From NCBI RefSeq assembly GCF_038593855.1, contig NZ_CP151996.1:1426001-1490000 (forward strand): a DNA stretch of 64,000 bases, in the 5' to 3' direction. Position numbers and translations under genes: made by a program. The DNA comes from Lysinibacillus sp. FSL M8-0337. GTDB lineage: Bacteria > Bacillota > Bacilli > Bacillales_A > Planococcaceae. Each line of letters starts with the position of its first letter. Within the stretch, counting starts at the first letter, position 1. Positions 4,559-18,190 of this stretch are shown one piece after another. The notes under the pieces are model-generated. The model saw nothing but the letters and a program-made list of their open reading frames with translations. It made no database searches and had not been told where the DNA came from.

Positions 4559-4714
4559 TTATAGTAAAAACATTGCCACAATGGTCGTTACAATAAGACC
4601 GATCGCTACAGGCAATAAATTGCGCCTTGCAAGCTCAAATGGACTTACATTGCAAATCGCAGCTGCTGGAATGAGCGCCCATGGAATAAGTGTACCGCCA
4701 CCAATAAAAGACAT
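4559..4714 (-). pseudogene. interrupted transporter, C-terminal part (third piece)
   Basis: The minus strand reads GGGTLIPWALIPAAA and then a final hydrophobic segment ending in VAMFLL and a TAA at 4559. This is the missing end of the transporter whose middle and N-terminal parts lie at 10449-11249 and 15296-15838. The 16-bp sequence AGTGTACCGCCACCAA at 4689-4704 is repeated at 10471-10486; joining there gives WVGGGTLIPWALIP in frame. By itself it can encode only a 51-residue peptide from the ATG at 4714, which is borrowed from the inserted element. Confidence 0.85.
4689..4704. repeat. attachment site (left end) of the 5.8-kb element
   Basis: AGTGTACCGCCACCAA is identical to 10471-10486. The probable crossover dinucleotide is GT at 4692-4693. 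The inner arm 4694-4716 is an imperfect inverted copy (19 of 23 bases) of the inner arm 10451-10473 at the other end, as expected for the two halves of an attP site. Confidence 0.85.
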
Positions 4715-4715
4715 A

Positions 4716-6143
4716 TTATTTAGCTGTAACAATGGTTATTTCTCTAGCTTGTTTACTGCTCCTATAATCATCCTTTGTATCAACGACTATTTGTTCGAAG
4801 ATGGTGGTCATTAATTGTTTGCGTTCGGTATCATCGGCATTGATCCATAGGGTATCAATATTGCGAATAATCGCCCGGATTTCCTCATGATGGCGATCGT
4901 CCAGCAGCTGTATCTTTTTTAAACTTGCTTGAATTTCTTTTTCTTTGTTACGCAATTTTTCGCTGTCTCGAATTAACTCATCAATACCAATAATATCATG
5001 TTCAAACATCGTTTTTTTCTTGTGTAAAAGCTTTTGCACAACAGCTAATTCCTGTTGTAATGCAGTCAATTGTGCCGCTGGAAAGGTAGCATCCCCCTCA
5101 TTACTTGTAAAATGGCCACCGACCAAGTCATCCCATTGTGCAAAAATTGCTTGCACTAAATTACTTTCTAAAATCATATGACTAGTACAAGCTTTACCAG
5201 CTTTCTTACCAGAACATCGATATGTTTTTTTCTTGCCCGCTTTATGACCAGCCATCGAATGCCCACAGCGTGCACATTTTAAAAGTGAAGAAAAATAGTA
5301 ATTACTCGTTTCACGCTTGCCACCTAATGTTCTACGCTTATCTAACAAATCTTGAAGTGCCCAAAATTCATCGCGATCAATAATACGCTTATGATTACCT
5401 TCAAATAACACCCGTTCACGAGGTGGTTTTTTTATATCTTTCGGATTTAAGCTAAACATTAAATAACCTGCGTATGTTGGATTATTGGCAATATCTCGCA
5501 CACTATCGACATGCCATTGCCCGCCCTTTCGAGTAGGGACGCCTTTACTCGTTAATTGCTTGGCAATCGTGTAAAATCCCAATGTTTTTGCTAATGTAAA
5601 TATATTCCTAACAATTTGTGCCTCATCTTCATCCATTATTAATGCACCATTTTCTACTTGATAGCCATAGGGAGGGGTGCCACCTTTCCAGTAGCCCAAC
5701 TTCACTTTCTTTTCCATGCCTAAACGCACCCGTTCAGCGGTATTTTCCCGCTCCCATTGCGCAATCGCCGCTACCAACGTAATAAACAAGCGTCCCATCG
5801 CATTAGTCGTGTCGTACACTTCCGTAGCCGATTTAAATTTACATTCATATTGGTCCAATTCAGCCAAAATCGTATGTAAATCAGGCACAGAGCGAGTTAG
5901 ACGATCCAACTTATAGACAAGTAAAACATCAATGCCCCCTTGTTGAATGCGCTGTAACATTGCTTGAAAATGGGGGCGATTTAAATCTTTAGCAGAATAG
6001 CCATCATCGACGTAAGGCGCCTCAACAATTTCCCAACCTTGTGACACACAATAAGCCTCTAACTTTTCAATTTGTGCAGCAATCGAAAACCCATGCTTCG
6101 CCTGTTCGTCGGTGCTAACGCGAACGTAGATAACGCATTTCAT
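4716..6143 (-). CDS. large serine recombinase (integrase), 475 aa
   Basis: The N-terminal resolvase domain has the YVRVSTDEQ motif with the nucleophile Ser10, and the LLVYKLDRLTRS motif with the arginines of the active site. It is followed by the recombinase domain (PPYGYQVENG onwards), a zinc ribbon (CARCGH, then paired cysteines near CSGKKAGKACTS) and a C-terminal coiled coil near residues 360-425. This order is that of phage-type large serine integrases. Its stop lies 12 bp from the left attachment core, which places it as the enzyme of the 5.8-kb element. It would integrate and, with a directionality factor, excise the element. Confidence 0.95.
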   Translation of the reverse strand: MKCVIYVRVSTDEQAKHGFSIAAQIEKLEAYCVSQGWEIVEAPYVDDGYSAKDLNRPHFQAMLQRIQQGGIDVLLVYKLDRLTRSVPDLHTILAELDQYECKFKSATEVYDTTNAMGRLFITLVAAIAQWERENTAERVRLGMEKKVKLGYWKGGTPPYGYQVENGALIMDEDEAQIVRNIFTLAKTLGFYTIAKQLTSKGVPTRKGGQWHVDSVRDIANNPTYAGYLMFSLNPKDIKKPPRERVLFEGNHKRIIDRDEFWALQDLLDKRRTLGGKRETSNYYFSSLLKCARCGHSMAGHKAGKKKTYRCSGKKAGKACTSHMILESNLVQAIFAQWDDLVGGHFTSNEGDATFPAAQLTALQQELAVVQKLLHKKKTMFEHDIIGIDELIRDSEKLRNKEKEIQASLKKIQLLDDRHHEEIRAIIRNIDTLWINADDTERKQLMTTIFEQIVVDTKDDYRSSKQAREITIVTAK

Positions 6144-6431
6144 CGCTATGTCACTCCTACACTTAGCGTTACTATTTCTAAGAACGAATAACTACACAGA
6201 TACTAAAATGCCTGTAACGAAAGAGCATTTATATAACATAATTTATTACGAGCATCCTTTGTTTAAGACTATACTTTATCTGTTAATGTCACAAATATTC
6301 TGAAACGATGTGGGACAATAAGTACCATGATACAGAAACAAGAATGGTTTATCTTAATGGAAGGTTGTCATAATGAAAGTGGGATTTGAGTCAATGTACA
6401 TAACAGAAGACTGATTGAAGGTTTAAATTAA

Positions 6432-7037
6432 TTAGTTTCTCCAGATATTTTCGAATGTTTGTGCTTCGAGTTGAAGTGCTTGAAGGATTTTAAGGTTTGC
6501 TTGCGTTGCTACATGTAATTTAGCTGTTTTCACGTTTAACACAGCAAATACAATGTTTGGTGGATAAGGGTCTTTCGATTGTGCTTCTAACATTAACGTT
6601 AGGATTGGTTGAATGTTGCGTTCAGTAATTTTTTCCGTATTCCCTTTAAAAAATAATTTGATTAAGTGGGGTACGCCGTCAATCACTAAACCGAGTTCGG
6701 GAGATGAACGGACTACTAAGCCATTAGTTGATGTCCACATGGATTTAGGTGGATCAAACCATTCAATTTTCTTGTTCCGTGTAAATTTTTTAAATGCCTT
6801 TATTGCTTCAGTATAGGAATTGATTTTGCGTTCATGGACTTCAGTTAGTAATGAATCTAATTGATTGAGAGATTGATTTTGCTCATAGCACAATTTTATA
6901 CGTTCTCGTAACTGCTTCCAATGATCTTTTACTGGATGATACTCTCCTTGATTTTTAATGTCATTAATTTTGTTGATCTTTGCCAGCATGGTCTGCCTAA
7001 CGGTGAAATCGATAAACTGTGTTAAACCAACAGACAT
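6432..7037 (-). CDS. hypothetical protein, cargo of the 5.8-kb element
   Basis: I do not recognise this 201-aa protein. It is soluble, basic and helical in its first half (residues 1-90), with a predicted alpha/beta second half containing a GLVVRSSPELGLVIDG stretch. No catalytic motif is evident. The ATG at 7037 has no good ribosome site; a CTG at 7067 in the same frame directly follows GGAAGGTGA and could be the true start, adding ten residues. It lies between the recombinase and a tiny plus-strand gene. The 288 bases between it and the recombinase show nothing recognisable. Confidence 0.6.
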   Translation of the reverse strand: MSVGLTQFIDFTVRQTMLAKINKINDIKNQGEYHPVKDHWKQLRERIKLCYEQNQSLNQLDSLLTEVHERKINSYTEAIKAFKKFTRNKKIEWFDPPKSMWTSTNGLVVRSSPELGLVIDGVPHLIKLFFKGNTEKITERNIQPILTLMLEAQSKDPYPPNIVFAVLNVKTAKLHVATQANLKILQALQLEAQTFENIWRN

Positions 7038-7214
7038 TTGCTCTTTTTCTGTTGTTTTAATTTTCAGTCACCTTCCTTTCTACAATCATTTTAACAGAAA
7101 GGTTAATGAAGGGGGATATTATTTTAGATTTAGTAAGTGTTCAAACATCATATATTTGTTTTAAAGCAAGTGACAAGCCCATTCGACATATTCTGATAAA
7201 AAGGAGTGTGTGGA

Positions 7215-7364
7215 ATGACGGCAGTCAAAATGACAGAAGAAAAGGTACGAAAATTATTGCCGATTATTGAAAGTATTTTGTCACGGGAATACGGAAGAAA
7301 GGTAACACTAAAGGATTTAACAGTGGGGGGTATTACAGTTTATAAAAATGATTGCGCGAAATAG
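7215..7364 (+). CDS. small hypothetical protein, 49 aa
   Basis: The ATG at 7215 follows AAGGAG (7201-7206) by eight bases and opens a 49-codon frame ending in TAG. The protein is charged, with one helix (KVRKLLPIIESILSREYG) followed by a short beta part. It is too small for a functional guess. Small element-encoded proteins near serine recombinases are sometimes excision factors, but nothing specific supports that here. Confidence 0.5.
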   Translation: MTAVKMTEEKVRKLLPIIESILSREYGRKVTLKDLTVGGITVYKNDCAK

Positions 7365-7577
7365 AGTAGTCACAAGATTTATGGGATAAGCTAATACCAA
7401 CTTCGACACGATTTGATTGCCACTTCCCACTCGCTGTAAAAAGGGTTTAAGTTATGAAAGAACGTTTCTTGCCTTTTAGAGGAGTGAAAGGCAATCGGAA
7501 ATTATGCTAAATATATGTCTTCTTGCTACAATTATTTAAATTATTCTTATCTAAAAAGCACCACTTTTGTTATATTT

Positions 7578-7606
7578 TTGACATCATCCATTTCTATTGA
7601 TAAAAT
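7578..7606 (+). promoter_or_regulatory. sigma-A type promoter for the secreted protein gene
   Basis: TTGACA at 7578-7583 and TAAAAT at 7601-7606 are separated by 17 bases, with AGGAGG and the ATG at 7661 about 50 bases further on. Confidence 0.6.
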
Positions 7607-7660
7607 ATTACGATATTAGTAGATAAAGTAAGTATTATAAAACAGAGTAGGAGGAGCATA

Positions 7661-8394
7661 ATGAAAAAATTATTTATTGTGTTATTAGCAGCGGTGGTAT
7701 TTGCGATTGTGAATCCAACAAAATCAGAGGCTATTAGGTATGATGGCGCAGAAGTATATAAAGATCAAACGGGGAAAATGACGTTTACCAAAGACATTAA
7801 GATTTATAAGAAAAATGAAGACGGTACATTTGATTCGTTAGTGGTGAAACGCAATAATTATTTTAGAACGTATGAAATTGAAAAATATGATGGTAAAACC
7901 TTTTATCAAATGGGGCCATATCGAGTACAAGCAACTAATCTAGTAGTTTTTAGAGAAATACCGATGAAAATTCGTGCATCTTTCTATCCAAATGTAACGT
8001 ATATTAATATTAATCGTAACAGTGGCCAGTATGGGAAACTCTTTACGGAATGGCGTGATACTTCCATCACGGATATGAATGGTGATCAATTGTTGAGATA
8101 TTGCAGGGACACTGTAAATGGGTTAAAGTGCGAAGAGCATTATCCAGGTTCAGATATGAAGGTAGCTGATACAATATTTAAAAAACCGGTGTCCGTTATG
8201 AAGTAACAGAAGACTCCGAAGCGAAAACCTATCCACTAATAGGCTCGAAAACAGAAAAAATGATGCCAAAAGGAAGCATGGTTTATTCAGTAAGTGATTC
8301 CATTAATGCTTACCTATGTGTAAAAGAAGACTTGGAAGCAAAAGATGAACAATGTACGTGGCTTCCTATTGGAATTTTAAAACCGATTTATTAA
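7661..8394 (+). pseudogene. secreted protein gene with a frameshift in an A-run
   Basis: A good ribosome site (AGGAGGAG) and a signal peptide (MKKLFIVLLAAVVFAI, cleavage near SEA) start the gene. The first frame stops at 8206 after 181 codons. Immediately after the run of six A at about 8180 the next frame stays open for another 65 codons to TAA at 8394, encoding a sensible continuation (TGVRYEVTEDSEAKT). One more A would join both parts into a protein of about 244 aa. No known family is recognised; the C-terminal part has a Cys pair (YLCVKEDLEAKDEQCTW). The cause is either a true mutation, length variation in the A run, or a base-calling error. Confidence 0.65.
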
Positions 8395-8434
8395 CGTGCT
8401 GACATAGTGAGAAAATGCATATTTGTATCGTTTT

Positions 8435-8474
8435 AAAGCCCAGGTACTCGATTGTTGAGCCTGGGCTTTATTGT
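8435..8474. terminator. terminator between convergent genes
   Basis: AAAGCCCAGG (8435-8444) and CCTGGGCTTT (8460-8469) form a 10-bp stem that can serve both strands. Confidence 0.8.
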
Positions 8475-8478
8475 TAGC

Positions 8479-8673
8479 TTATTCTTTTTTTTTCGTTTTA
8501 ATTTGATAAGTAATACCAAACACTATGTTAAAAATTAAACAAAAATTTAACGGATTTAATAAAGCCCAAAGTAAACTTGATTCTAATGCTAAAAGCAATA
8601 AAATCCACAAAATCAAGCAGACATAATAGGCCAATATCATGGGCAAACAAAAAACTTTATCTAAATCCAGCAT
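8479..8673 (-). CDS. small membrane protein, possible partner or immunity protein
   Basis: This is a 64-aa protein with two predicted membrane segments (about residues 10-30 and 36-56) and a basic tail ending in KTKKKE. AGGAGG lies seven bases before the ATG at 8673. It starts only 18 bases after the stop of the secreted hydrophobic protein gene, so both are one transcript. The same pair layout occurs at 20274-21137. A role in protecting the producer from a toxic secreted partner is plausible but unproven. Confidence 0.6.
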   Translation of the reverse strand: MLDLDKVFCLPMILAYYVCLILWILLLLALESSLLWALLNPLNFCLIFNIVFGITYQIKTKKKE

Positions 8674-8691
8674 ACAATTTCCTCCTATATA

Positions 8692-9234
8692 CTAATCAAA
8701 ACAAGAGGACGCTGCACCTGACATTGCTCCGCCTGCTGCACCTATAATAGCTCCTCCAGCAGCACCTACCGCATTTCCGATAACAGGAAGAACGGATCCG
8801 ACACCAGCTCCTACCCCTAAGCCACTTAATGCACCAAGATAATACCCGCCAAGAACACCTAGTGTACATTTCCATTTAGAACGAGCTAATCTAGTTGTAT
8901 GAACCGGTTGTTCATCGTTATGTAATTCTATAATCAGTCCATTAGCAACTGATTTATAAATTAAATGCACCTCATTACCATGACTATCTATCGCTTGAGT
9001 TGGCAGTATTTCTGTATAATCACCTTTTGTAACAATTATATTTCCAACTTCATCATTTTCAATTTTTGCGTCTTCATTTAACAAATCTAAACGCATGGTA
9101 CTTTCATTTAAAATGGTAATGGCAAAATCGCTATTCTGTTCAGCTGCAGAAACAGTGGATGCAGGTAAGCCAATATTTGCCGTGAAAAAGAATAAGAGAA
9201 CCAAACAAGTCAGCATAAAAAATAATTTCCTCAT
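8692..9234 (-). CDS. secreted protein with glycine-rich hydrophobic C-terminus, bacteriocin-like
   Basis: I chose the ATG at 9234 because GGAGGAGG lies about ten bases upstream; the longer frame to 9423 adds an unlikely leader. The 180-aa protein has a signal peptide (residues 1-30, ending in VSAA), a polar middle part, and a last 55 residues made of glycine-zipper-like hydrophobic sequence (GLGVGAGVGSV, GAAGGAIIGAAGGAMSG) ending in ASSCFD. A cysteine lies before the hydrophobic part and another near the end, so a disulfide is possible. This design is seen in pore-forming peptides and some bacteriocins; the family itself is not recognised. Confidence 0.65.
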   Translation of the reverse strand: MRKLFFMLTCLVLLFFFTANIGLPASTVSAAEQNSDFAITILNESTMRLDLLNEDAKIENDEVGNIIVTKGDYTEILPTQAIDSHGNEVHLIYKSVANGLIIELHNDEQPVHTTRLARSKWKCTLGVLGGYYLGALSGLGVGAGVGSVLPVIGNAVGAAGGAIIGAAGGAMSGAASSCFD

Positions 9235-9693
9235 TTGTATAACGCCTCCTCCAATATTCTGATTATTCTTATATTTTAAATAAAAAACATAAAACTGAAA
9301 ATATAATACACAAAATTGTAACAAAAAAATTTGTTTGGATTTCAATGAGAAAACTTTAATCGCGATACATATTTTTAAATAGCATGATACAGATTGTTTA
9401 AATAATAAAAGGGTATTGTTCATTAAATTGTGTAATTAATATAAACACAAAAATATTTGAACTATGCAAAGCGATTAATGAACATGGTGTTGCGTTTCTG
9501 CTCGTCCTTCAAAATCCAAAAAAAATGAGCATAATCGTAGCAATAATAAGCGCTACATATAGTGAAATGGCGATGAACATAAATAAATTATCGCTGCATA
9601 AAATTTTAGTTATACGTAAACAATACGTATAAATTCATTGACTCCTTTCTTTTTAATACGTATAATACACGTATAGCGGAAAGGGGTTAAAAA
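9235..9693. other. intergenic region with the hicAB control region
   Basis: The left part is AT-rich with no visible gene. The right part (9612-9676) holds the hicAB promoter and its repeated palindromes, listed separately. Confidence 0.5.
9612..9676 (+). promoter_or_regulatory. hicAB promoter with repeated TACGTA operator palindromes
   Basis: A near-consensus sigma-A promoter is present: TTGACT at 9638-9643, a 17-base spacer, TATAAT at 9661-9666. Copies of TACGTA lie at 9613-9618, 9624-9629 and 9657-9662, with CACGTA at 9669. The first two precede the -35 box and the others cover the -10 box. HicB-type antitoxins usually bind palindromes in their own promoter, so this is the likely autoregulatory operator. 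Confidence 0.7.
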
Positions 9694-9867
9694 ATGAAAA
9701 AGAGAGAGTTAGAGAAACGCTTCTCGGCTAAAGGGTGGGAATTTTTGACCCATGGTGGTAAACATGATATATGGGTGTCACCAACAGGCAAGAAAGAACA
9801 AATCCCTAGACATAGAGAAGTTGATGAAGGTTTAGCAAAAGGGCTCATTAGAAAGCACAACCTGTAA
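9694..9867 (+). CDS. hicA: HicA-type mRNA interferase toxin
   Basis: This 57-aa protein has the HicA double-stranded-RNA-binding fold signature: a basic N-terminus, GWEFLTHGGKHDIWVSP with the catalytic histidine His24, and a C-terminal helix ending in IRKHNL. The family cleaves mRNA independently of or near ribosomes. The start follows GGGG and lies just after the promoter. HicB begins 50 bases downstream. Small size and position inside the element suggest an addiction module that discourages loss of the element. Confidence 0.9.
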   Translation: MKKRELEKRFSAKGWEFLTHGGKHDIWVSPTGKKEQIPRHREVDEGLAKGLIRKHNL

Positions 9868-9917
9868 AAGGGTTGGCTTTCAAGCCCAATAAAAATAGAA
9901 ACGAAAGAAGGTAGAAA

Positions 9918-10301
9918 ATGAAAAATGTTGTAGTTTATCCTGTGGTTATTTCACCCCTATCAGCAGACGGTTTTCACTTAGTGACAATTCCTGATATTGA
10001 CGGGATTACCCAAGGGGAAACTATTGCTGAAGCTATTGAGTATGCAAGGGATTATATAGGTAATGCTATAGCTTTTGCTGATGAACCAATAAATAAACCG
10101 AATACGGTTTCTTTTACACCAAAAGAAAATGATATTGTAACACTTGTAGATGTTGATATAGAGGCACATAAGAAAGCTTTAGATTTAACGCCAGTTAAAA
10201 AAACGTTAACTATTCCTAGCTATTTAAATGATTTAGGTATGAAACAAGGTATAAACTTTTCCCAAACTTTAACGGATGCTTTAAAAGACAAATTACTATA
10301 A
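9918..10301 (+). CDS. hicB: HicB-type antitoxin
   Basis: The protein has 127 aa. The N-terminal half is the HicB partial RNase-H-like fold (YPVVISPLSADGFHLVTIPDIDG, then a helix EAIEYARDYIG). The C-terminal 40 residues look like a ribbon-helix-helix DNA-binding domain (KKTLTIPSYLNDLGMKQGIN). It neutralises HicA and should repress the promoter at 9638-9666. The ribosome site is AAGAAGG before the ATG at 9918. Confidence 0.9.
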   Translation: MKNVVVYPVVISPLSADGFHLVTIPDIDGITQGETIAEAIEYARDYIGNAIAFADEPINKPNTVSFTPKENDIVTLVDVDIEAHKKALDLTPVKKTLTIPSYLNDLGMKQGINFSQTLTDALKDKLL

Positions 10302-10359
10302 TAAATATATAAATTAGCATAATAAATTTACGAATAATTTAACTCTCTCTTTTTATTTT

Positions 10360-10392
10360 CGGCTTGATCATTTCAAGCCGTTTTTTTATTTT
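10360..10392 (+). terminator. terminator of hicAB
   Basis: CGGCTTGA (10360-10367) pairs with TCAAGCCG (10373-10380), followed by a run of seven T. Confidence 0.85.
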
Positions 10393-10448
10393 TTTCGAAT
10401 TCTTTTCGTTTTGCTTTAAATTGATACCTTGTATTAGAAGTCCCTTTT

Positions 10449-11249
10449 TTATATGTCTTCCATTGGTGACAGTGTACCGCCACCAACCCAAATGCCCGTG
10501 ATTTGTCCGAGTGCGGTTAGGGTTGCTGTACCTCCTCCAATCGCATTGCCGAATAAGCTACCTATTGAACCAGCTAGCGAAATGCCAGAGAATCCAGAGC
10601 CGTCTAAACCTGTAATGGCACCTACGACTGCAAGGGTCACGACCGCAATTTCTTTCGTTAATGGTACAACTGCGGCTAAGCCGACACCAAGATCATTGAC
10701 AATGCCATGAGAAGCGGAAGGGAGGTAGTCACCAATAATTTGGGTAAATCCGGAGTCACCAAGATAGAAGAAAGCTGCAATGGGGATAACGGGTCCAAAT
10801 ACTTTAAATCCAAATTGGAATCCTTGAATTAAATAATTTGTTGATTTCTCAAATCCTTGTTTTTTATGTGCAACAAGACAGAGCACTAACAATATAAAGA
10901 CAGCCGTTCCACCAATTAGAGCAGTAGCGTCACCGCCTTGCAGTTTTAATACTGACATGGCAATAACATCGAGCAAAAAGGTAAATGGAATAAGTATCGC
11001 AAAAAATCGTTTTTGTCCGCGGGTAAGCAAATGTTCATCTTTCAGCTGTTCTATAACATCATTCGATTCAGATGAAGTTGTTAACTGAAGAGTGCCTCGC
11101 TTCATATCACGTTTTAATAAGATAAAAGCAGCTATCGTCGTCACAAGGCCCATCGTCATAACAAGCGGAATACTGGCTGAAACGACATCCCCTACTGGAA
11201 TACCCGCAGCATCTGCAGTCAACTTTGGAGCGCCTTGAATCACAATATC
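10449..11249 (-). pseudogene. interrupted transporter, middle part (second piece)
   Basis: The minus-strand frame reads SDIVIQGAPKLTADAAG onwards through at least six hydrophobic segments to ITGIWVGGGTL, after which the frame leaves the host gene and stops (SPMEDI). The upstream end meets the N-terminal part through TCTAGTGA, shared by both junctions (11248-11255 and 15348-15355), and the downstream end meets the C-terminal part through the 16-bp core. The hydrophobic profile, central hydrophilic loop (around SSESNDVIEQLKDE) and glycine-rich GGGT hairpin suggest a member of the ion-transporter superfamily (organic acid or Na+/H+ type). The substrate cannot be named. As it stands, this piece alone should not be functional. 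Confidence 0.85.
10471..10486. repeat. attachment site (right end) of the 5.8-kb element
   Basis: This 16-bp core is identical to 4689-4704. The crossover dinucleotide is probably GT at 10474-10475, and the inner arm runs leftwards from 10473. Confidence 0.85.
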
Positions 11250-11255
11250 ACTAGA
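11248..11255. repeat. attachment site (left end) of the 4.1-kb element
   Basis: TCACTAGA is repeated at 15348-15355. Beyond it, the inner arms carry TTCTAA (11266-11271) and its inverted copy TTAGAA (15330-15335), equidistant from an AC dinucleotide at 11250-11251 and 15350-15351. Confidence 0.75.
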
Positions 11256-11694
11256 AAACGTTTCTTTCTAAGCTTTATAAGTAAGGGGCTTTGTCACTTA
11301 GAACATTAATACAAACATCTAGTCTACAATCAACGTCAACTATTAATACATATTAAAAAATTTCATATAAAATTATAACTTTTCTGTAATAAAGCGTATG
11401 TGTTCAACTTAGGTTTAAAGAAAGCTATCCTTCTTTAGTAGTAAAAAGATAAGGGGGCACTAAAATACCAAACTTTTATTATATATACAAATTATGTATA
11501 ATTTGGTATTATAATAGTAATTATAAAAGGTATCATGCCAATTTTGGATAAATATAAATTACATATGGTACTAGTATTTCGTGATAACGGAAGGGTAGGT
11601 GATCCAATAATTGTAGGATACTTTTATGAAGTATTATAGCGCATATTTGATTTTGTACTTGGAGTAAAAATTATATCAGAAAGAAGGAATATCA
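11256..11694. other. intergenic region at the left end of the 4.1-kb element
   Basis: It contains a 9-bp inverted repeat, AATACCAAA at 11464-11472 and TTTGGTATT at 11502-11510, upstream of the PPC-protein gene. It may be an operator or a structured leader. No gene is seen. Confidence 0.4.
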
Positions 11695-13305
11695 ATGAAA
11701 ATGAGACGCTCTTTAATCTCTTGCCTAACTGTTACCATGCTGTTTAGCGTTGGTTCAGTATCATATGCTTCAAACGATGCTCTATTATCTAATGCAGAAG
11801 GAAGCGAGCATGCAAGCAAAGAAGTTACTCTTTCGAACGACACTGACCAAACTTTAGAAAATGGGCTAAATGGTATAGATAGTACTGGTATTGATTTAAG
11901 TAATGTTGTTGATAGCACTTTTCAAGAGAAAGATGTAATGGCATTAGACAACGAATTATCAATAGAAGCAACTAATGTTGCTCCTGTTACAAAATCAACA
12001 ATGAGTCGCCATGCAGCTCCAAATGATTATGTTCTGTCAAAGTCTTTTTTAGAAAACATTAACGCTGTTAAGGGTATAACTACTTTCAGTGGTGGAAACG
12101 AGATTAAAAACAACGATACTACAGGCACGAGTCGTGCTGTTGGCAACAATTCTCCTGATAAAGCTATATTCTTAGATGAAACATACTATGACCAACCTTT
12201 GAACGACAACATTATCGGGGACGGAGTACCAAATTGGTATTATGTTTATGCACCAACTACTTCTAAGATTAACTTTTACTTATCACAGGCTACAAACCAA
12301 GATTCTGATGTATATGTTTATAGTCTAAATCAATCTACAGGTGTACTTTCTTTGGTAGATTATTCGATAAATGATGGGCAATTGTCCGAATCAATCGGTT
12401 ATATGGCGGAAGCAGGTTATTATTTCTTCCGTATAGAGCCAAATGGCACAACGAATAGTAATAATTATACTTTTTTAACAAATGTGAATAATACTTATGA
12501 CCAGTATGAGAAAAACGACAGCCCAAATGACAACTTATCACTTTTCACTGGTAAAATGGATGTTAATGCAAATATTGACTTTATGTTTGACTCTGATTGG
12601 TACTTATTTAAGCCATCAAGCGCAGGCAAACATTATGTTAGTTTAAATAATGTACCGTCCGACGCTCAATATGCTTTTTACATTTATAACGAAAATTTGG
12701 GTAGTATGGGTAGTTTTTTAAGTAGCGGTAACGAATCTAGATGGTTAGAATTAGAATCGAATAAGAGTTACTACATAAGAGTAGAATCCTATGATGGTAA
12801 ATATACTCCGCAATCACCATACAATGTTACTGTAGTAAAAGCACCTCCCACACCTCCGTCTATTACAGCAGGCACCTATGATGTTTATGTAAACGGACAA
12901 GCAATCAATCTTAGTTGGGAATATCAATATGCTTCAAAGCCTTATAACGGATATTACTCAAGAAATGAAAGTACTATGTTAAACAGAAACGGTACTTCAA
13001 CAATTGGTAATGTATACAAAGGCACATTTAGAGGTTTCAACAAAACCATTCAAAATGCTCTGTTAATAGAAGCGAATTACGTTGGGTTTTACGATTACAT
13101 GTATAGATTTGGCAATACTACTGCTCCATCAGGCGAGCCTACCAGAAATCAGTGGCATTATTCGGATGGGGTGTATGCCAATATCGGCACTTTTATCTAC
13201 AATATCGATACGGGTAAAATTGAAGATAATCTAGGTAGTTACCCGTATTCATATCGTGGGGAAGATTGGAACTTCAAAGCAACTGAACAAATAAAAAGTC
13301 GTTAA
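11695..13305 (+). CDS. secreted protein with two PPC-like beta-sandwich domains
   Basis: A signal peptide of about 26 residues ends near SYAS. Residues 150-270 and 270-385 are two bacterial pre-peptidase C-terminal (PPC)-like domains: each has a D-x-D-W/N-W-Y strand (VPNWYYVYAP; FDSDWYLFKP), then glycine turns and a YYFFRIEP or YYIRVES strand. A PTPPS linker leads to a C-terminal region of about 150 residues rich in aromatic residues and Asn. No protease or anchoring motif is seen. PPC domains usually sit beside secreted peptidases, so a stand-alone pair suggests binding or adhesion. It is the main cargo of the 4.1-kb element. Confidence 0.75.
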   Translation: MKMRRSLISCLTVTMLFSVGSVSYASNDALLSNAEGSEHASKEVTLSNDTDQTLENGLNGIDSTGIDLSNVVDSTFQEKDVMALDNELSIEATNVAPVTKSTMSRHAAPNDYVLSKSFLENINAVKGITTFSGGNEIKNNDTTGTSRAVGNNSPDKAIFLDETYYDQPLNDNIIGDGVPNWYYVYAPTTSKINFYLSQATNQDSDVYVYSLNQSTGVLSLVDYSINDGQLSESIGYMAEAGYYFFRIEPNGTTNSNNYTFLTNVNNTYDQYEKNDSPNDNLSLFTGKMDVNANIDFMFDSDWYLFKPSSAGKHYVSLNNVPSDAQYAFYIYNENLGSMGSFLSSGNESRWLELESNKSYYIRVESYDGKYTPQSPYNVTVVKAPPTPPSITAGTYDVYVNGQAINLSWEYQYASKPYNGYYSRNESTMLNRNGTSTIGNVYKGTFRGFNKTIQNALLIEANYVGFYDYMYRFGNTTAPSGEPTRNQWHYSDGVYANIGTFIYNIDTGKIEDNLGSYPYSYRGEDWNFKATEQIKSR

Positions 13306-13633
13306 GCTTCTATTTATGACGAATCGTACTTATTAATAGAGGTATGCAACAGCATGTTTTTTTAGTCTTTAGCATTTATTAAAATCCCACATCATTTAAG
13401 AAGCTGTAATCTTAATTGGTTTGGGATTTTTAAATTTATATATAAATTCTAATATTTTGAGGAAGCGAGGTTTGATTTTACATATAATAGTGCGTTTCGA
13501 TTTGTTTTACAAACAGTATCGCCGATTTTGGTAATAGGACAAAGTTTAGATACATAAAATTCATTGTATGAAATTTGATATCTAAAAATTTGGATTTTAT
13601 TTATCTCTTTTGTATTTAAAAGGAGTGATGAAA
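13306..13633. other. intergenic region with a terminator
   Basis: AAAATCCCA (13381-13389) and TGGGATTTT (13422-13430) form a likely terminator for the PPC-protein gene. The rest is AT-rich and holds no convincing gene; the antisense frame at 13449-13655 has no ribosome site. Confidence 0.5.
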
Positions 13634-13744
13634 ATGAAAAACAACAAAGAAACAAGAGTTCCTAAAATAACTATCAATAAATCAAAGAAGCCAAATTATA
13701 AAGCAGTAGCACAAGCATTAATTAAATATGCATCAAAAAAATAA
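13634..13744 (+). CDS. 36-residue basic protein, candidate recombination directionality factor
   Basis: AGGAG at 13621-13625 lies eight bases before the ATG at 13634. The protein is very basic, with KITINKSKKP followed by a helix (YKAVAQALIKYASKK). It converges on the serine recombinase with 11 bases between the stops. Small basic proteins next to large serine recombinases include the SPbeta factor SprB, which turns integration into excision; the assignment here rests on size, charge and position only. Confidence 0.6.
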   Translation: MKNNKETRVPKITINKSKKPNYKAVAQALIKYASKK

Positions 13745-13775
13745 GACACGATCTCTTAAAGGGAGGTGTCTTTTT
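13743..13775 (+). terminator. terminator of the small basic protein gene
   Basis: AAGACAC (13743-13749) pairs with GTGTCTT (13766-13772), followed by T5. It overlaps the 3' end of the convergent recombinase gene. Confidence 0.75.
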
Positions 13776-15276
13776 CTATTATTTCAATTGAAAATTTATC
13801 ATCAGTATTGATTAAAACAACTTTTTCAAAGAGTAGTCTAAATAGTCTGTTTTGTTCTTCCGTTTCAATATTTTCTACTGTTTGTAAAAAATCTAAAGCT
13901 TTTTTCTTTAAATCAACACTACTTTTCTCACTCACTGTTTTTAGTTTTTTATTACTATCTACAAGTAAACTTTTTAATTCCTGCAATTCATTTTCTAATT
14001 GTGGCATTATATTCACATATTTAGTTTCCTTTAGTATACCTTTAATCAAATACATATCAGTATTTTTGATTTCTTCTTCTTTTTCTTTTATCTTCTTATT
14101 AAATAGTTTTATTTCTTGCAAAATAGAAAGCTTTGTATCATTTCTATTATCTATTGAGGTATTTAAAAGTTCTTCTCCAATAATCTCTTTATAATTATTA
14201 ATTGCTTTATAGAAATGGGGTAATAAAAAATTTAAACTCACAGATTTATGAGGACATTTATACTCAAAGTTCTCTCCATATGAATTTTTACAATTACTAA
14301 TTTGATAAGATATGACACCTTCTTTATTTACATATGATTTATGGATTGGTAAACGATGGCCACAAATACCACAATACATTAACCTGTCTAAAGGTGTATT
14401 TATTTTAGTGTAACGTATGCCTTGTGTATTTCTTGAACGAGAAGCTATTTTCTTTTTAATTTTTTGATATTCTTCTATAGTCATCAAAGGTTCGTGTGTA
14501 TCACGTATAATAACGTCTTCACCAAACATTTTACTATTATAATGTGATTCTCCTAAATATACTTTATTATCAAAGAGTCGAGTAATTGTAGTAGCAGCTT
14601 TGAATTTTTTTCCTTGCTTTGTAGTATATCCTCTTAAATTTAATTCGATTATCACTTCTTTAATTGTATAACCCTCAATAATCTTTTCGACAATCAATCT
14701 AAACGCTTTACTTTCAATGGGGTGTGGTATTAAATTATTTCTTTCTTTTATATAACCAAATGGAATCTTATTTACATATGAGCCATTTTTAGCTGTTTGA
14801 AGTTTCGTTTGATTCATACGGTGGGCATAGTTATGTAATTCGTGTTCGTTAACTGCACCACGCACAATATTAGCCAAGAATTGAGTTCTATCATTAGGGT
14901 TTATAATGCCTTCTCTATCAGAAAAAATCACTATGTCAGTGCCTTTTAAGTCCTCATATACATTTGTCTGTTCATATACAGTTCTATATAGTCGAGATTC
15001 TTCTAAAACCACAATCGTATCGTGTACGCCTTGTAAGCAAGCATTTAACATTTTTCTATATTCTATACGGTCTAGTTTAGTCGATTTAGCAACGAAATCA
15101 TTATAAATTACATAATCATCAATTTTGTTATTTTTACAAAATTCTAATAATCGTTGCATATTTGATTCTAAAGTCTCTTCTTCAGTTTTCCCTTTTTTCT
15201 TTTTAGACTTTCTTAAATACAAGGCTTTAGGCTTATTAGATTGAAGTATGTCACATTTTTCAACTGGTCTATACAC
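13756..15276 (-). CDS. large serine recombinase of the 4.1-kb element, 506 aa
   Basis: The resolvase domain carries the catalytic serine in ALYLRKSKKKKGK (Ser24) and the VLEESRLYR active-site arginine region. The recombinase domain starts near PFGYIKERNN, and the zinc ribbon has MYCGICGHRLP with later cysteines (NCKNSYGENFEYKCPH). A long Lys/Glu-rich coiled coil follows (about 390-450). The sequence is only distantly related to the enzyme at 4716-6143. The GTG start follows GGGAGG by eight bases and comes only 19 bases after the stop of the truncated transporter N-terminal frame, so it should be transcribed from the transporter promoter. Confidence 0.93.
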   Translation of the reverse strand: MYRPVEKCDILQSNKPKALYLRKSKKKKGKTEEETLESNMQRLLEFCKNNKIDDYVIYNDFVAKSTKLDRIEYRKMLNACLQGVHDTIVVLEESRLYRTVYEQTNVYEDLKGTDIVIFSDREGIINPNDRTQFLANIVRGAVNEHELHNYAHRMNQTKLQTAKNGSYVNKIPFGYIKERNNLIPHPIESKAFRLIVEKIIEGYTIKEVIIELNLRGYTTKQGKKFKAATTITRLFDNKVYLGESHYNSKMFGEDVIIRDTHEPLMTIEEYQKIKKKIASRSRNTQGIRYTKINTPLDRLMYCGICGHRLPIHKSYVNKEGVISYQISNCKNSYGENFEYKCPHKSVSLNFLLPHFYKAINNYKEIIGEELLNTSIDNRNDTKLSILQEIKLFNKKIKEKEEEIKNTDMYLIKGILKETKYVNIMPQLENELQELKSLLVDSNKKLKTVSEKSSVDLKKKALDFLQTVENIETEEQNRLFRLLFEKVVLINTDDKFSIEIIEKDTSL

Positions 15277-15295
15277 AAATAAACCTCCCGTTATT

Positions 15296-15838
15296 CTATA
15301 ATATGGCGTTATTATTCGAATTTAACCATTTAGAATAATGTGCTTTTTCACTAGATAAAGCAATTCCGTGACCAAATAAGTTCATTGCCATGGCAACGCC
15401 CAACGCTGGTAAACCCGCTCGAATGGCTACAGGTAGTAGCACTGCTCCTAATAATGCTACAGCAGGAGAGGGCCAGAAAAACCAAGAAATAATCATCATT
15501 AATATACCAATCGTCCAATAGGCGAGTGTCGGTGTTTTAATAATTTTTGTAAATGGTGCAACCATGACCTCATTAATACCAGAAGTTATTAACACACGAC
15601 TCATCGCAACAATAATGGAGATAATCAAAATGGTCGATAACAGCTCTGTAATCGCATAAATAAAGCTGTTAAAAACCCCGCTAATAGACGAAGTGAGATC
15701 ACCTGTAGCGACAATCGCAAGTAGGAAAATGCCAAGAATACAAATGAGGGTAGTATCCCGACGTTTCACCATAAAGCCAATAATTAGAACAATAAAAACA
15801 ACATAAATCCAATGGAGAGAAGTAAGTTCAATCCCCAT
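15296..15838 (-). pseudogene. interrupted transporter, N-terminal part (first piece)
   Basis: GAGGGGG precedes the ATG at 15838. The frame encodes four to five hydrophobic segments and ends host-like at GHGIALSS, after which 17 element-encoded residues (EKAHYSKWLN...) lead to TAG. The second piece begins SSDIVIQG at 11255. Joined over both elements the gene is 163 + 260 + 42 codons, about 465 aa, the size of a full ion-transporter-superfamily permease. The family includes organic-anion and Na+/H+ carriers; which substrate is moved cannot be told. Its promoter drives the recombinase gene that follows. Confidence 0.85.
15348..15355. repeat. attachment site (right end) of the 4.1-kb element
   Basis: TCACTAGA matches 11248-11255. 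The inverted TTAGAA arm lies at 15330-15335, inside the element. Confidence 0.75.
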
Positions 15839-16394
15839 ATAGTTTCCCCCTCAAAATAGGTCTAATTATAGAATATGAGAGGAATTTTAGATGGTGATTA
15901 GTTTCGGAAATAAAAGGTGGGAGTCATGTGATAAAAATACACAGTAGGTTCATGTCATGAGAATTATATATAAACTAGAAAATTTAACTAATTATTTCCG
16001 TCAAATTTATAATAATGCCATTAGTCATTGGATTGTAATTGAACGTCTTGCTTTAAAACAAATGTTTTCATTACTCATTGTAATAAACTAAATTAGTTGA
16101 ACTTGAAAATTCTTCATAATATACTGCCGATACATTTCTGACAAATATGTTTCCAATGTCCGGTGGCATTTGGGAAGGGAAATAATACGGTGAACTCATA
16201 AGTAAATGAGGTCCTGGAGAGTAGAAAAGCTTTGGGGGCACTCCTTTTTTTGTAATTCATGAAAGCTGATGTGGGCGTTGTGATATGTGAACACCAATTA
16301 TTCTATAGTACGCATCATCAATATCTTGATAACTTTGCTAATTGTAAATGTTACACCTTTTAGTAAACTTTAGTAGAAATACTAAGCAAAATAA
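15839..16394. other. long region without recognised genes
   Basis: The part next to 15839 must hold the transporter promoter. The rest is AT-rich with short, broken frames. The GC-richer stretch near 16160-16250 could be a gene remnant, but no product is recognised. Confidence 0.35.
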
Positions 16395-16579: not shown

Positions 16580-18190
16580 TTATTTTTTTACTGCATTCTT
16601 TTCTAAATCTGCACTTGCACGGTTTACCATCGCCGCCATTTGACCTCTCGTGACATGATCAAATGGATAAAATCCTCCATCTTCTTTTCCCTTAATAATC
16701 CCTTTACTACTTAATTTTAAAATATCTGCATATGCCCAAAAATCTTTTGGAACATCATAAAAACTGGACTCATCCGTAGGTAATGGATAATTTAATACTC
16801 TCGATAATATACCTGCTAATTGTGCTCTTGTGATATTGGCATTTGGATCGAAAATGTTTTCATTTGTGCCATTCACAATATGATACTTATAGGCAATTTC
16901 TATAGGACGTTTTGCCCAATGATTTGCTGGCACATCCTTGAAATAATTAGGTACAGTTTCGTTTGTTGTGTCTAAACCGATGGCATTAATAAGGATAACA
17001 GTAGCCTGAGCTCTTGTTAAATTACCATTTGGATCGTAAGTGTATTCGTTTTTGCCGTTAATCCAGCCTTTTCGGTAAAGGGCCATAACATCCTGTTCTG
17101 CCCAATGATTTTCCGTATCTATAAAGTTATGTTCCCCATTCGCCCAAGAAGAATAAAATTTCCAAATACCATTATCCGCTTGAGTTAACTCCCAGCTACC
17201 TGTTCCTCTTAAATTATATTTCTCTACAAGTCTTAACTTATATTTTAAAGATAAATCATTTTCGTACCATATCGTGTAATTTCCTGGTACTAGCTTTTTA
17301 CCACCGATATAAGTAGGAGAGTCACTGCTTTTTACTGTAAATTTGGCAAATGCTGATTTTGAAGTATTATCAAAATAAAATTTTCCATTATGGCTATTCA
17401 CAATAGATTTTACGGCATTATTAGCAATGCCTTCGCCTCCTATTTCCACATCATCCTTCCAAATTCGTCCATAAAAAGGGAGGCCTAATACTATTTTATT
17501 TGGATTAATCCCTTTATCTAATAAATATTTAATCGAATTTTCAACAAATGATAAACTTGCGACAGGACCAACTGAACCACCATTATAGCTTTCATCATAC
17601 GCCATCAGCATTAAATAATCGCTATACTCACTTAGTTTCGTGTAATCATAAGAACCATGCCACCCAGTTGTCCACCCATATGGATTTGCAGCAACTGCTA
17701 TGGATAATGTTTTATTATTAGGCATTTTTTCACGTAATAATCGGATGAAATCTGTAAACTCTTCTTTATTTGTATAGTTTAAATTTTCTATATCAATATC
17801 AACGCCATCTAAATTATTTTTCACAACAGAATTGACGATTTGAGTAGACAATATTTCTCGGTTTGTCATTGCGATTTGTGCCAATTTACGGTCCCAATGA
17901 TTAGAAATGAAAGGCACAACTTTTAATCCTCTATTATGCATTGCATCGACTAAACTTTTATCAATCGTAGCACTTAAACTACCATCTGCATTTAAATTAA
18001 AAAAGTTAGGTGTTGCCGTATTTAACGCACCTTGAGTCATATCTATATTTTTTATGAAAGAGCTTGTATTTCCGCTATATAAATATGACATATGTATATC
18101 ACTCGCTGAGGCGTTAGCACTAAACGGAGTAACTAATAAAGTAGTGAGCATAGCTGGTATTATCAAATATTTTTTTAATAGATTTTTCAT
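16580..18190 (-). CDS. S-layer-anchored glycoside hydrolase family 18 protein
   Basis: A signal peptide (residues 1-28) is followed by a GH18 TIM barrel (about 30-355). The active-site motif is DGVDIDIE, with Asp128, Asp131, Asp133 and the acid Glu135; MLMAYDES and the late Trp (GTGSWELT) also fit. Three SLH domains (about 360-530; TRAQATVILINA, TRAQLAGILSRV, TRGQMAAMVNRA) bind secondary wall polymer. Members of this subgroup (YaaH/YdhD-like) act on peptidoglycan or chitin-like glycans, often in spores; a wall-remodelling role is the best guess here. AAGGAAG precedes the ATG. Confidence 0.92.
   Translation of the reverse strand: MKNLLKKYLIIPAMLTTLLVTPFSANASASDIHMSYLYSGNTSSFIKNIDMTQGALNTATPNFFNLNADGSLSATIDKSLVDAMHNRGLKVVPFISNHWDRKLAQIAMTNREILSTQIVNSVVKNNLDGVDIDIENLNYTNKEEFTDFIRLLREKMPNNKTLSIAVAANPYGWTTGWHGSYDYTKLSEYSDYLMLMAYDESYNGGSVGPVASLSFVENSIKYLLDKGINPNKIVLGLPFYGRIWKDDVEIGGEGIANNAVKSIVNSHNGKFYFDNTSKSAFAKFTVKSSDSPTYIGGKKLVPGNYTIWYENDLSLKYKLRLVEKYNLRGTGSWELTQADNGIWKFYSSWANGEHNFIDTENHWAEQDVMALYRKGWINGKNEYTYDPNGNLTRAQATVILINAIGLDTTNETVPNYFKDVPANHWAKRPIEIAYKYHIVNGTNENIFDPNANITRAQLAGILSRVLNYPLPTDESSFYDVPKDFWAYADILKLSSKGIIKGKEDGGFYPFDHVTRGQMAAMVNRASADLEKNAVKK

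Follow-up and report, generated by a model that had tools for sequence, protein, structure and literature searches.

We analyzed a window of 64,000 nucleotides from Lysinibacillus sp. FSL M8-0337 (all coordinates below are positions in this window), in which one permease gene is cut twice by two different elements, here called A and B, each with its own large serine recombinase (LSR), LsrA and LsrB. The gene is present as three minus-strand frames that make up a single permease of 465 codons, split at codon ~163 (cut A) and codon ~421 (cut B). We consider it probable that A and B are sporulation-gene-intervening elements stacked in one transporter gene, itself predicted to be expressed late in the mother cell, and that they excise during sporulation and so rebuild the gene in frame. 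The features that bear on this reading are the following.

4559..4704, minus strand: permease 3' piece, codons ~417 to 465 plus stop
4689..4704: 16-bp core on the 3'-piece side of element B, exact repeat
4689..10470: element B, 5,782 bp from core copy to core copy
4716..6143, minus strand: LsrB, LSR of 475 amino acids (aa), Ser-10 in YVRVS, Pfam PF00239, PF07508, and PF13408
7172..7195, plus strand: predicted mother-cell promoter of RdfB, GACAAG-N9-CATATTCTG
7215..7364, plus strand: RdfB, candidate excision (directionality) factor of element B, 49 aa
10471..10486: 16-bp core on the middle-piece side of element B, exact repeat
10471..11255, minus strand: permease middle piece, codons ~162 to ~421 (frame end at 10449)
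11248..11255: 8-bp core on the middle-piece side of element A, exact repeat
11248..15347: element A, 4,100 bp from core copy to core copy
13634..13744, plus strand: candidate excision factor of element A, 36 aa
13756..15276, minus strand: LsrA, LSR of 506 aa, Ser-24 in YLRKS, Pfam PF00239 and PF07508 above cutoff
15348..15355: 8-bp core on the 5'-piece side of element A, exact repeat
15348..15838, minus strand: permease 5' piece, codons 1 to ~163 (open frame continues to 15296)
15869..15897, minus strand: predicted sigma-K-type promoter of the permease, TCACC-N15-CATATTCTA

The original prediction, made from the letters of the window, had taken the three frames for successive parts of one permease, with short shared sequence at both ends of each cut. 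Both claims were borne out. The core of cut A, TCACTAGA, is an exact repeat with just two copies in the window (11248 and 15348), as is that of cut B, AGTGTACCGCCACCAA (4689 and 10471). Joining core to core gave a stop-free frame of 465 codons that reads IALSSDIVIQG and IWVGGGTLIPWALIP at the joins, so that direct repeats at both ends and a frame restored on joining were found for elements A and B alike. In the closest uncut relative (G020, 97% identical protein), site A is the same as in the joined window over 70 bases, and site B has the sequence expected for a joined gene. Regarding the frame coordinates first given, the permease pieces were right, but the frames overshoot each cut and include a few codons of the element. 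The source genome is a single contig of 4.56 Mb, in which the joined protein matches only the three pieces.

Both recombinases are complete and have the LSR domain set, with a catalytic serine near the N terminus. LsrA matches the Resolvase, Recombinase, and zinc-ribbon models, the last below the Pfam cutoff (21.3 versus 25.3 bits), and its S24 is invariant across 23 aligned sequences; the zinc ribbon of LsrB scores above the cutoff. The two proteins are ~21 to 23% identical. Against the XisF equivalog model (fdxN-type element), the two LSRs scored 165.7 and 69.2 bits, far below the cutoff of 375. The reconstructed phage-type attachment site (attP) of element B is dyad-symmetric about the dinucleotide AC at 19 of 25 positions, a level reached by 0 of 2,000 shuffles. 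Inspection by eye of the LsrA and LsrB promoters gave no consistent motif.

Other accounts of the split gene were rejected. An assembly artifact does not fit a genome on one contig and cuts that recur in other genomes; chance repeats do not fit cores that each occur just twice in the window; and a transposon insertion does not fit an LSR in each element and the use of the same site in many species. A and B as two halves of one element were rejected because of the low identity between LsrA and LsrB and because their relatives target different codons.

As to what the gene encodes, the permease had no Pfam or NCBIfam family above cutoff and, in a structure search, no relative among solved structures. 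Its 120 listed homologs are named hypothetical protein, membrane protein, or transporter; two bear the name TRAP-type C4-dicarboxylate transport system permease large subunit. A precomputed PF06808 or PF03600 is assigned to three. Among the matches listed in protein records, its closest uncut relatives are from Lysinibacillus.

Searches with the joined protein covered first 151 genomes, one being the source genome and 150 those of relatives, with a match in 68, and then a second set of 261 family genomes including the window's own, 83 of which had a permease match. The gene is uncut in 65 of these 83 (one match spanning at least 462 of the 465 codons), cut by inserts in 11, and decayed or incomplete in 7; relatives thus do carry it as a continuous gene of about 465 codons. 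The cut genomes with readable pieces are G000, G001, G016, G017, G023, G028 (on two contigs), G029, G036, G071, G312, and G320. The cut at codon ~421 is found in 9 of these 11, the cut at codon ~151 in G036 and G071, that at codon ~164 in G000 only, and that at codon ~394 in G320 only; G071, from another genus, is also doubly cut, at codons 151 and 421. Orthologs of LsrB (at least 54% identity) number nine in the 261 genomes, and all nine sit at codon ~421, their 3' end abutting the 3' piece of the permease. The other 12 LsrB matches listed, which include the codon-151 recombinases of G036 and G071, are at most 39% identical. Looking for cores in other genomes by longest repeat gave chance repeats in several cases, and an in-register comparison was used instead. 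This gave shared exact runs of 4 to 16 bases at codon 421 and just 2 shared exact bases at the Robertmurraya site; the shared core of the codon-394 site in G320 did not resolve.

LsrA recurs as well. A search of the 261 family genomes (expectation value [E], 1e-40) returned 2 matches, none above 28% identity besides LsrA itself. Elsewhere, 27 of the 42 homologs listed are 56 to 98% identical and come from Lysinibacillus and other Bacilli. In two of three genera compared, Robertmurraya and Fictibacillus, LsrA relatives (58 to 59% identity) cut the same permease gene in the same orientation at codon ~164 to 166; the 3' part resumes 7.5 kb later in Robertmurraya and falls outside the stretch examined in Fictibacillus. 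In three other genera, homologs of the 36-aa gene, 41 to 43 aa long, follow LsrA in the corresponding position. The LsrA family was absent from the viral contigs searched, and its small partner had no match in phage records.

The permease upstream regions are dissimilar apart from one block close to the start, which in the window is made up of TCACC, a 15-base spacer, and CATATTCTA, and a sigma-K-like pattern is present in 28 of 28 aligned regions. A strict form of this pattern (AC, 15 to 18 bases, and CATANNNT[AG], within 130 bases) was found at all 28 permease loci, always at −52 to −61 (shuffles, 266 of 8,400). It was also found in 21 of 22 more distant orthologs, hand-chosen from other genera and families (shuffles, 134 of 6,600), with G139 as the one ortholog that lacks it; in three of the 21 (G164, Fictibacillus, and Robertmurraya), it lies at least 90 bases upstream. 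Among the open reading frames (ORFs) of the window, 2 of 54 have it, one being the permease itself. SpoIVA is encoded in 197 of the 261 family genomes, and all 83 permease genomes are among them (two listings compared by eye). By genus, the co-occurrence is 7 of 7 versus 13 of 19 (chance, 0.034), which indicates that kinship explains part of it. Judged by its upstream sequence, the permease is predicted to be a late mother-cell sporulation gene of the sigma-K type. The promoter block resembles the SigK promoter of bclA in Bacillus thuringiensis, CAC-N16-CATATGTTA, as given in PMC4750369. The only other window ORF of at least 120 aa with the strict pattern upstream encodes a neighboring protein of 536 aa (16580 to 18190).

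Every one of the nine LsrB elements encodes RdfB (55 to 100% identical matches), upstream of the recombinase gene and on the other strand; among the element B genes compared, only RdfB and the recombinase occur in all nine. It is also encoded in all six viral contigs that carry an LsrB of 64% identity and was not found in six other viral contigs with LSRs at 36% or less. The word CATANNNT lies at −26 to −29 from the RdfB start in 15 of 15 cases (shuffles, 377 of 7,500; window ORFs, 5 of 54). The exact box CATATTCTG occurs in eight of the nine elements, with GACAAG nine bases before it in seven and GACGAG in one, and the upstream sequences diverge beyond these words. GACAAG resembles what we take to be the SpoIIID box (GGACAAG), a letter string for which a literature search gave no paper. 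RdfB is under strong constraint, with 0 nonsynonymous and 9 synonymous changes (0N/9S) between G000 and G017, 3N/15S between G000 and G023, and a dN/dS (ratio of nonsynonymous to synonymous divergence) of 0 to 0.04 in countable pairs; pairs with G016 were saturated. It had no Pfam family and no match among solved structures or in phage records. We infer that RdfB is the recombination directionality factor (RDF) of element B.

Under the reading that we favor, LsrB and RdfB would excise element B once RdfB is made in the mother cell, and LsrA with its own small partner would excise element A in response to some trigger. With both elements gone from the mother-cell chromosome, the permease would be rebuilt in frame, and only a mother cell that had lost both could make a complete transporter. 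Since the mother cell is a terminal cell, both elements would persist in the spore. A wider version of this proposal is tentative, and we put it a little below an even chance: the transporter gene may be a docking gene for at least three LSR systems (codons ~151, ~164, and ~421, with a possible fourth at ~394), arranged in this strain as a two-key lock, and the sporulation programme itself would open the lock, given that the codon-421 system may supply, in prophages as well, an excision factor of its own under mother-cell control.

The remaining genes of the two elements are cargo or without an assigned role.

6432..7037, minus strand: 201-aa protein upstream of LsrB, without assigned function
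7661..8206, plus strand: element B cargo, 181 aa, without assigned function
8692..9423, minus strand: element B cargo, 243 aa, with a ~95% identical homolog in the element of G017
9694..9867, plus strand: element B cargo, HicA-like toxin of a toxin-antitoxin pair (PF07927, phrog_353)
9918..10301, plus strand: element B cargo, HicB-like antitoxin (PF15919, phrog_497)
11695..13305, plus strand: element A cargo, 536 aa, without family match

Four LsrB elements encode the 201-aa protein, out of nine compared, one of which was covered only in part. The 181-aa frame is shorter than its 244-aa homolog in G017 and seems interrupted. The 243-aa protein had no Pfam, NCBIfam, or PHROG match and one weak PADLOC match (E, 0.00023). 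Nine proteins of elements A and B were scanned, most ORFs under ~50 aa being outside the scan; only integrase/invertase-type and toxin-antitoxin families were found among them, with no structural or packaging genes and no relaxase or conjugation genes.

As regards phage genes, the statement that none are involved held for elements A and B only; two LsrB orthologs lie in inserts of ~45 kb. These inserts, at codon 421 of G312 and G071, have many proteins in common, and five proteins scanned from that of G312 match phage families, namely those of the portal, the major head protein, the head maturation protease, the tape measure, and head or tail structural proteins. Of the six viral contigs with LsrB at 64% identity, three extend more than 100 bases past the recombinase, and two of these run on into the permease 3' piece. 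In L193 (bases 5423 to 9422), what comes after the LsrB-like recombinase is not the permease but DNA akin to the opposite element end, encoding proteins with matches close to the far end of the G312 and G028 inserts. L193 could represent joined element ends, as in a phage genome or an excised circle; symmetry at the junction covers 15 of 25 positions, a level reached by 119 of 2,000 shuffles, and the case for a free form is therefore suggestive only. An exact-pattern search of the viral contigs found no free attP of element B.

We evaluated selection on the permease in pairs with a synonymous divergence (dS) of 0.05 to 1.6 among 31 genomes, with G041 dropped for a register shift. The median dN/dS was 0.055 in 20 cut-cut pairs, 0.053 in 149 uncut pairs, and 0.058 in 90 mixed pairs. 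Between G000 and G017, the permease differs by 7N/23S over codons 1 to 151 and 165 to 421 (2N/12S and 5N/11S, respectively), and LsrB differs by 8N/40S, mostly silent changes. The dS values for this pair were 0.148 for LsrB, 0.139 for the 201-aa gene, 0.144 for the host gene Mrp, and 0.077 for the permease; short genes scatter (HicB, 0.024; RdfB, 0.335). Since LsrB and the 201-aa gene are diverged to the same degree as Mrp, element B is probably as old as the split between G000 and G017. The LsrB sequences of G000, G017, G023, and G029 follow host order.

A number of observations weigh against programmed excision of the two elements. The gene can be lost, as it is decayed or incomplete in G006, G015, G018, G022, G024, G062, and G319, although G024 and G319 may be contig breaks; in G015 and G018, the cuts are near codon 151. 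Pairwise dN/dS covers time before insertion, and so by itself it is no proof that the cut gene is used. The pair G000-G017 is the sole one with an apparently inherited element B, and it offers few changes (0N/1S in the 3' piece). Simple inheritance of element B in all carriers was looked for and not supported: between G023 and G029, the silent divergence of LsrB is 0.569, versus 0.256 for the permease and 0.141 for Mrp, which indicates that elements were exchanged or gained anew there. The RdfB promoter has no recognizable sigma-E or sigma-K −35 element, and the exact CATATTCTG box is absent in G071 and the six viral contigs, which carry other CATANNNT words and no GACAAG in place. A fold search with RdfB gave no match at an E of 0.001, and the structure prediction for the permease, built from 21 close homologs, was uninformative (predicted local distance difference test score, 39.8). 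For element A, there is no conserved promoter block on the 36-aa gene, the reconstructed attP is symmetric at 12 of 25 positions (1,269 of 2,000 shuffles were as good), and the LsrA relative in Virgibacillus is not flanked by the permease.

Some of these points would also be expected of a plain hot spot, in which several phages and elements use the gene as an attachment site (attB) since a late sporulation gene can be interrupted without harm, excision is not programmed, elements are lost only by chance or phage induction, and the cut gene is simply off. The decay in 7 of 83 genomes fits this account, as do the insert with phage head and tail genes at the same site in G312, the related one in G071, and the scatter of cut lineages on the permease tree next to uncut sisters (G001/G005, G016/G011, and G028/G025). 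We nevertheless regard it as unlikely, given three features that it does not lead one to expect: a mother-cell-type −10 box before the RDF-like gene in 15 of 15 cases, the strict conservation of RdfB, and permease pieces that are in frame and conserved in G000 and G017 though element B looks old there. It is less probable still, and in our judgment improbable, that the elements are domesticated remnants, one or both of them (A more readily than B) being no longer excisable and the permease of this strain being dead. The recombinases of both elements are complete and retain the serine, and between G000 and G017 LsrB and RdfB differ mostly at silent sites, neither of which suits a remnant; the shortened 181-aa cargo gene of element B, the small gene of element A without a conserved promoter, and the thin 3'-piece evidence from G000-G017 would suit one. 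Of these accounts, we favor two excisable, sporulation-linked elements in one transporter gene.

Partial copies of the permease were seen in further genomes. Extra copies of its first ~150 codons occur at L167 (G301), at L166, L164, and L165 (G319), and at L039 (G015), separated by unrelated cargo; those of G301 precede a complete permease copy. Their appearance is that of cassettes replacing the 5' end of the permease at codon ~151, and the stretches examined around them in these three genomes showed no recombinase like LsrA or LsrB. In L041 (G012), G031, and L042 (G045), a complete permease is followed 0.9 to 1.6 kb on by a second copy of codons ~417 to 465, as if a codon-421 element had brought its own 3' end. 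In G145, from another family, only a 3' fragment (codons 415 to 465; L051, 5004 to 5153) was found in the genome. The codon-151 elements of G036 (L037, 2454 to 12275) and G071 (L043) have several proteins in common, which include a beta-propeller-like protein and a DUF4183 protein in G036; these two may be akin to spore-surface proteins. At the Virgibacillus locus (L171, 9870 to 12213), the small partner, a helix-turn-helix protein, and a 118-aa protein follow LsrA in tandem twice; the duplication may be an assembly effect, since one small frame there reads X.

Several recombinase families appear to share this transporter gene as a target, across a number of Bacilli genera. Genomes in which it is uncut, cut once at either place, or cut twice are natural replicates for asking why mother-cell genes attract elements, whether stacked elements excise in a set order, and whether the host gains. 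In addition, the locus yields natural att sites and candidate directionality factors for two LSR families, and it draws attention to an uncharacterized, predicted sigma-K-type transporter that merits study in spore formation.

No report of this gene as a target, or of stacked elements in a spore former, was found in the literature searched, which included few subscription papers. The original prediction had called two elements in one gene unusual; this stood for spore formers, for which we found no precedent, but not for bacteria at large, since 10 of 87 interrupted genes in cyanobacteria hold more than one element, with as many as four in a single nifD (PMC4874684). The elements of nifD, nifH, and other cyanobacterial genes resemble those described here in being several per gene and use serine or tyrosine recombinases for excision during differentiation (PMC4874684); they differ in phylum and in cell type (heterocyst-forming hosts). 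Intervening elements of spore formers are known in sigK, spsM, spoVFB, gerE, and yabG (PMC10747680); those that we found described sit singly, whereas two are stacked in one gene here. In Lysinibacillus sphaericus, a different element, with a tyrosine recombinase and another target, has been reported (PMC13239906).

Closer parallels come from individual elements. The gin element in gerE of Bacillus cereus ATCC10987 likewise has no phage genes, a serine recombinase, and a short shared core; it has a separate factor (GirX) and interrupts a mother-cell gene, both as predicted here. It differs in being a single element in a regulator gene, with excision shown for gin and predicted here (PMC5595907). 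The skin element in sigK of Clostridioides difficile pairs an LSR with a 72-aa RDF, CD1234, much as LsrB may be paired with RdfB, and sigma-E and SpoIIID control of CD1234 restricts skin excision to the mother cell; the target is a sigma factor, and the element is single (PMC5025042). The likeness to skin and SPbeta on which the original prediction drew has been strengthened by the sigma-K-type promoter, by the RDF-like gene with its mother-cell-type −10 box, and by LSR relatives that cut the gene at the same codons (the Virgibacillus LsrA relative excepted). SPbeta in spsM of Bacillus subtilis has a sigma-K-controlled target, as predicted here, a 16-bp core, as in element B, and a recombinase gene directly upstream of the 3' piece, as with LsrB (PMC4191935). 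Its small RDF-like factor, SprB, has a perfect mother-cell −10 and a poor −35, and the predicted RdfB promoter is of the same design. Production of SpsM takes two excisions in two genes, of skin for sigma-K and of SPbeta for spsM; SPbeta is an active phage and the one element in its gene, whereas here two different elements share one (PMC4191935).

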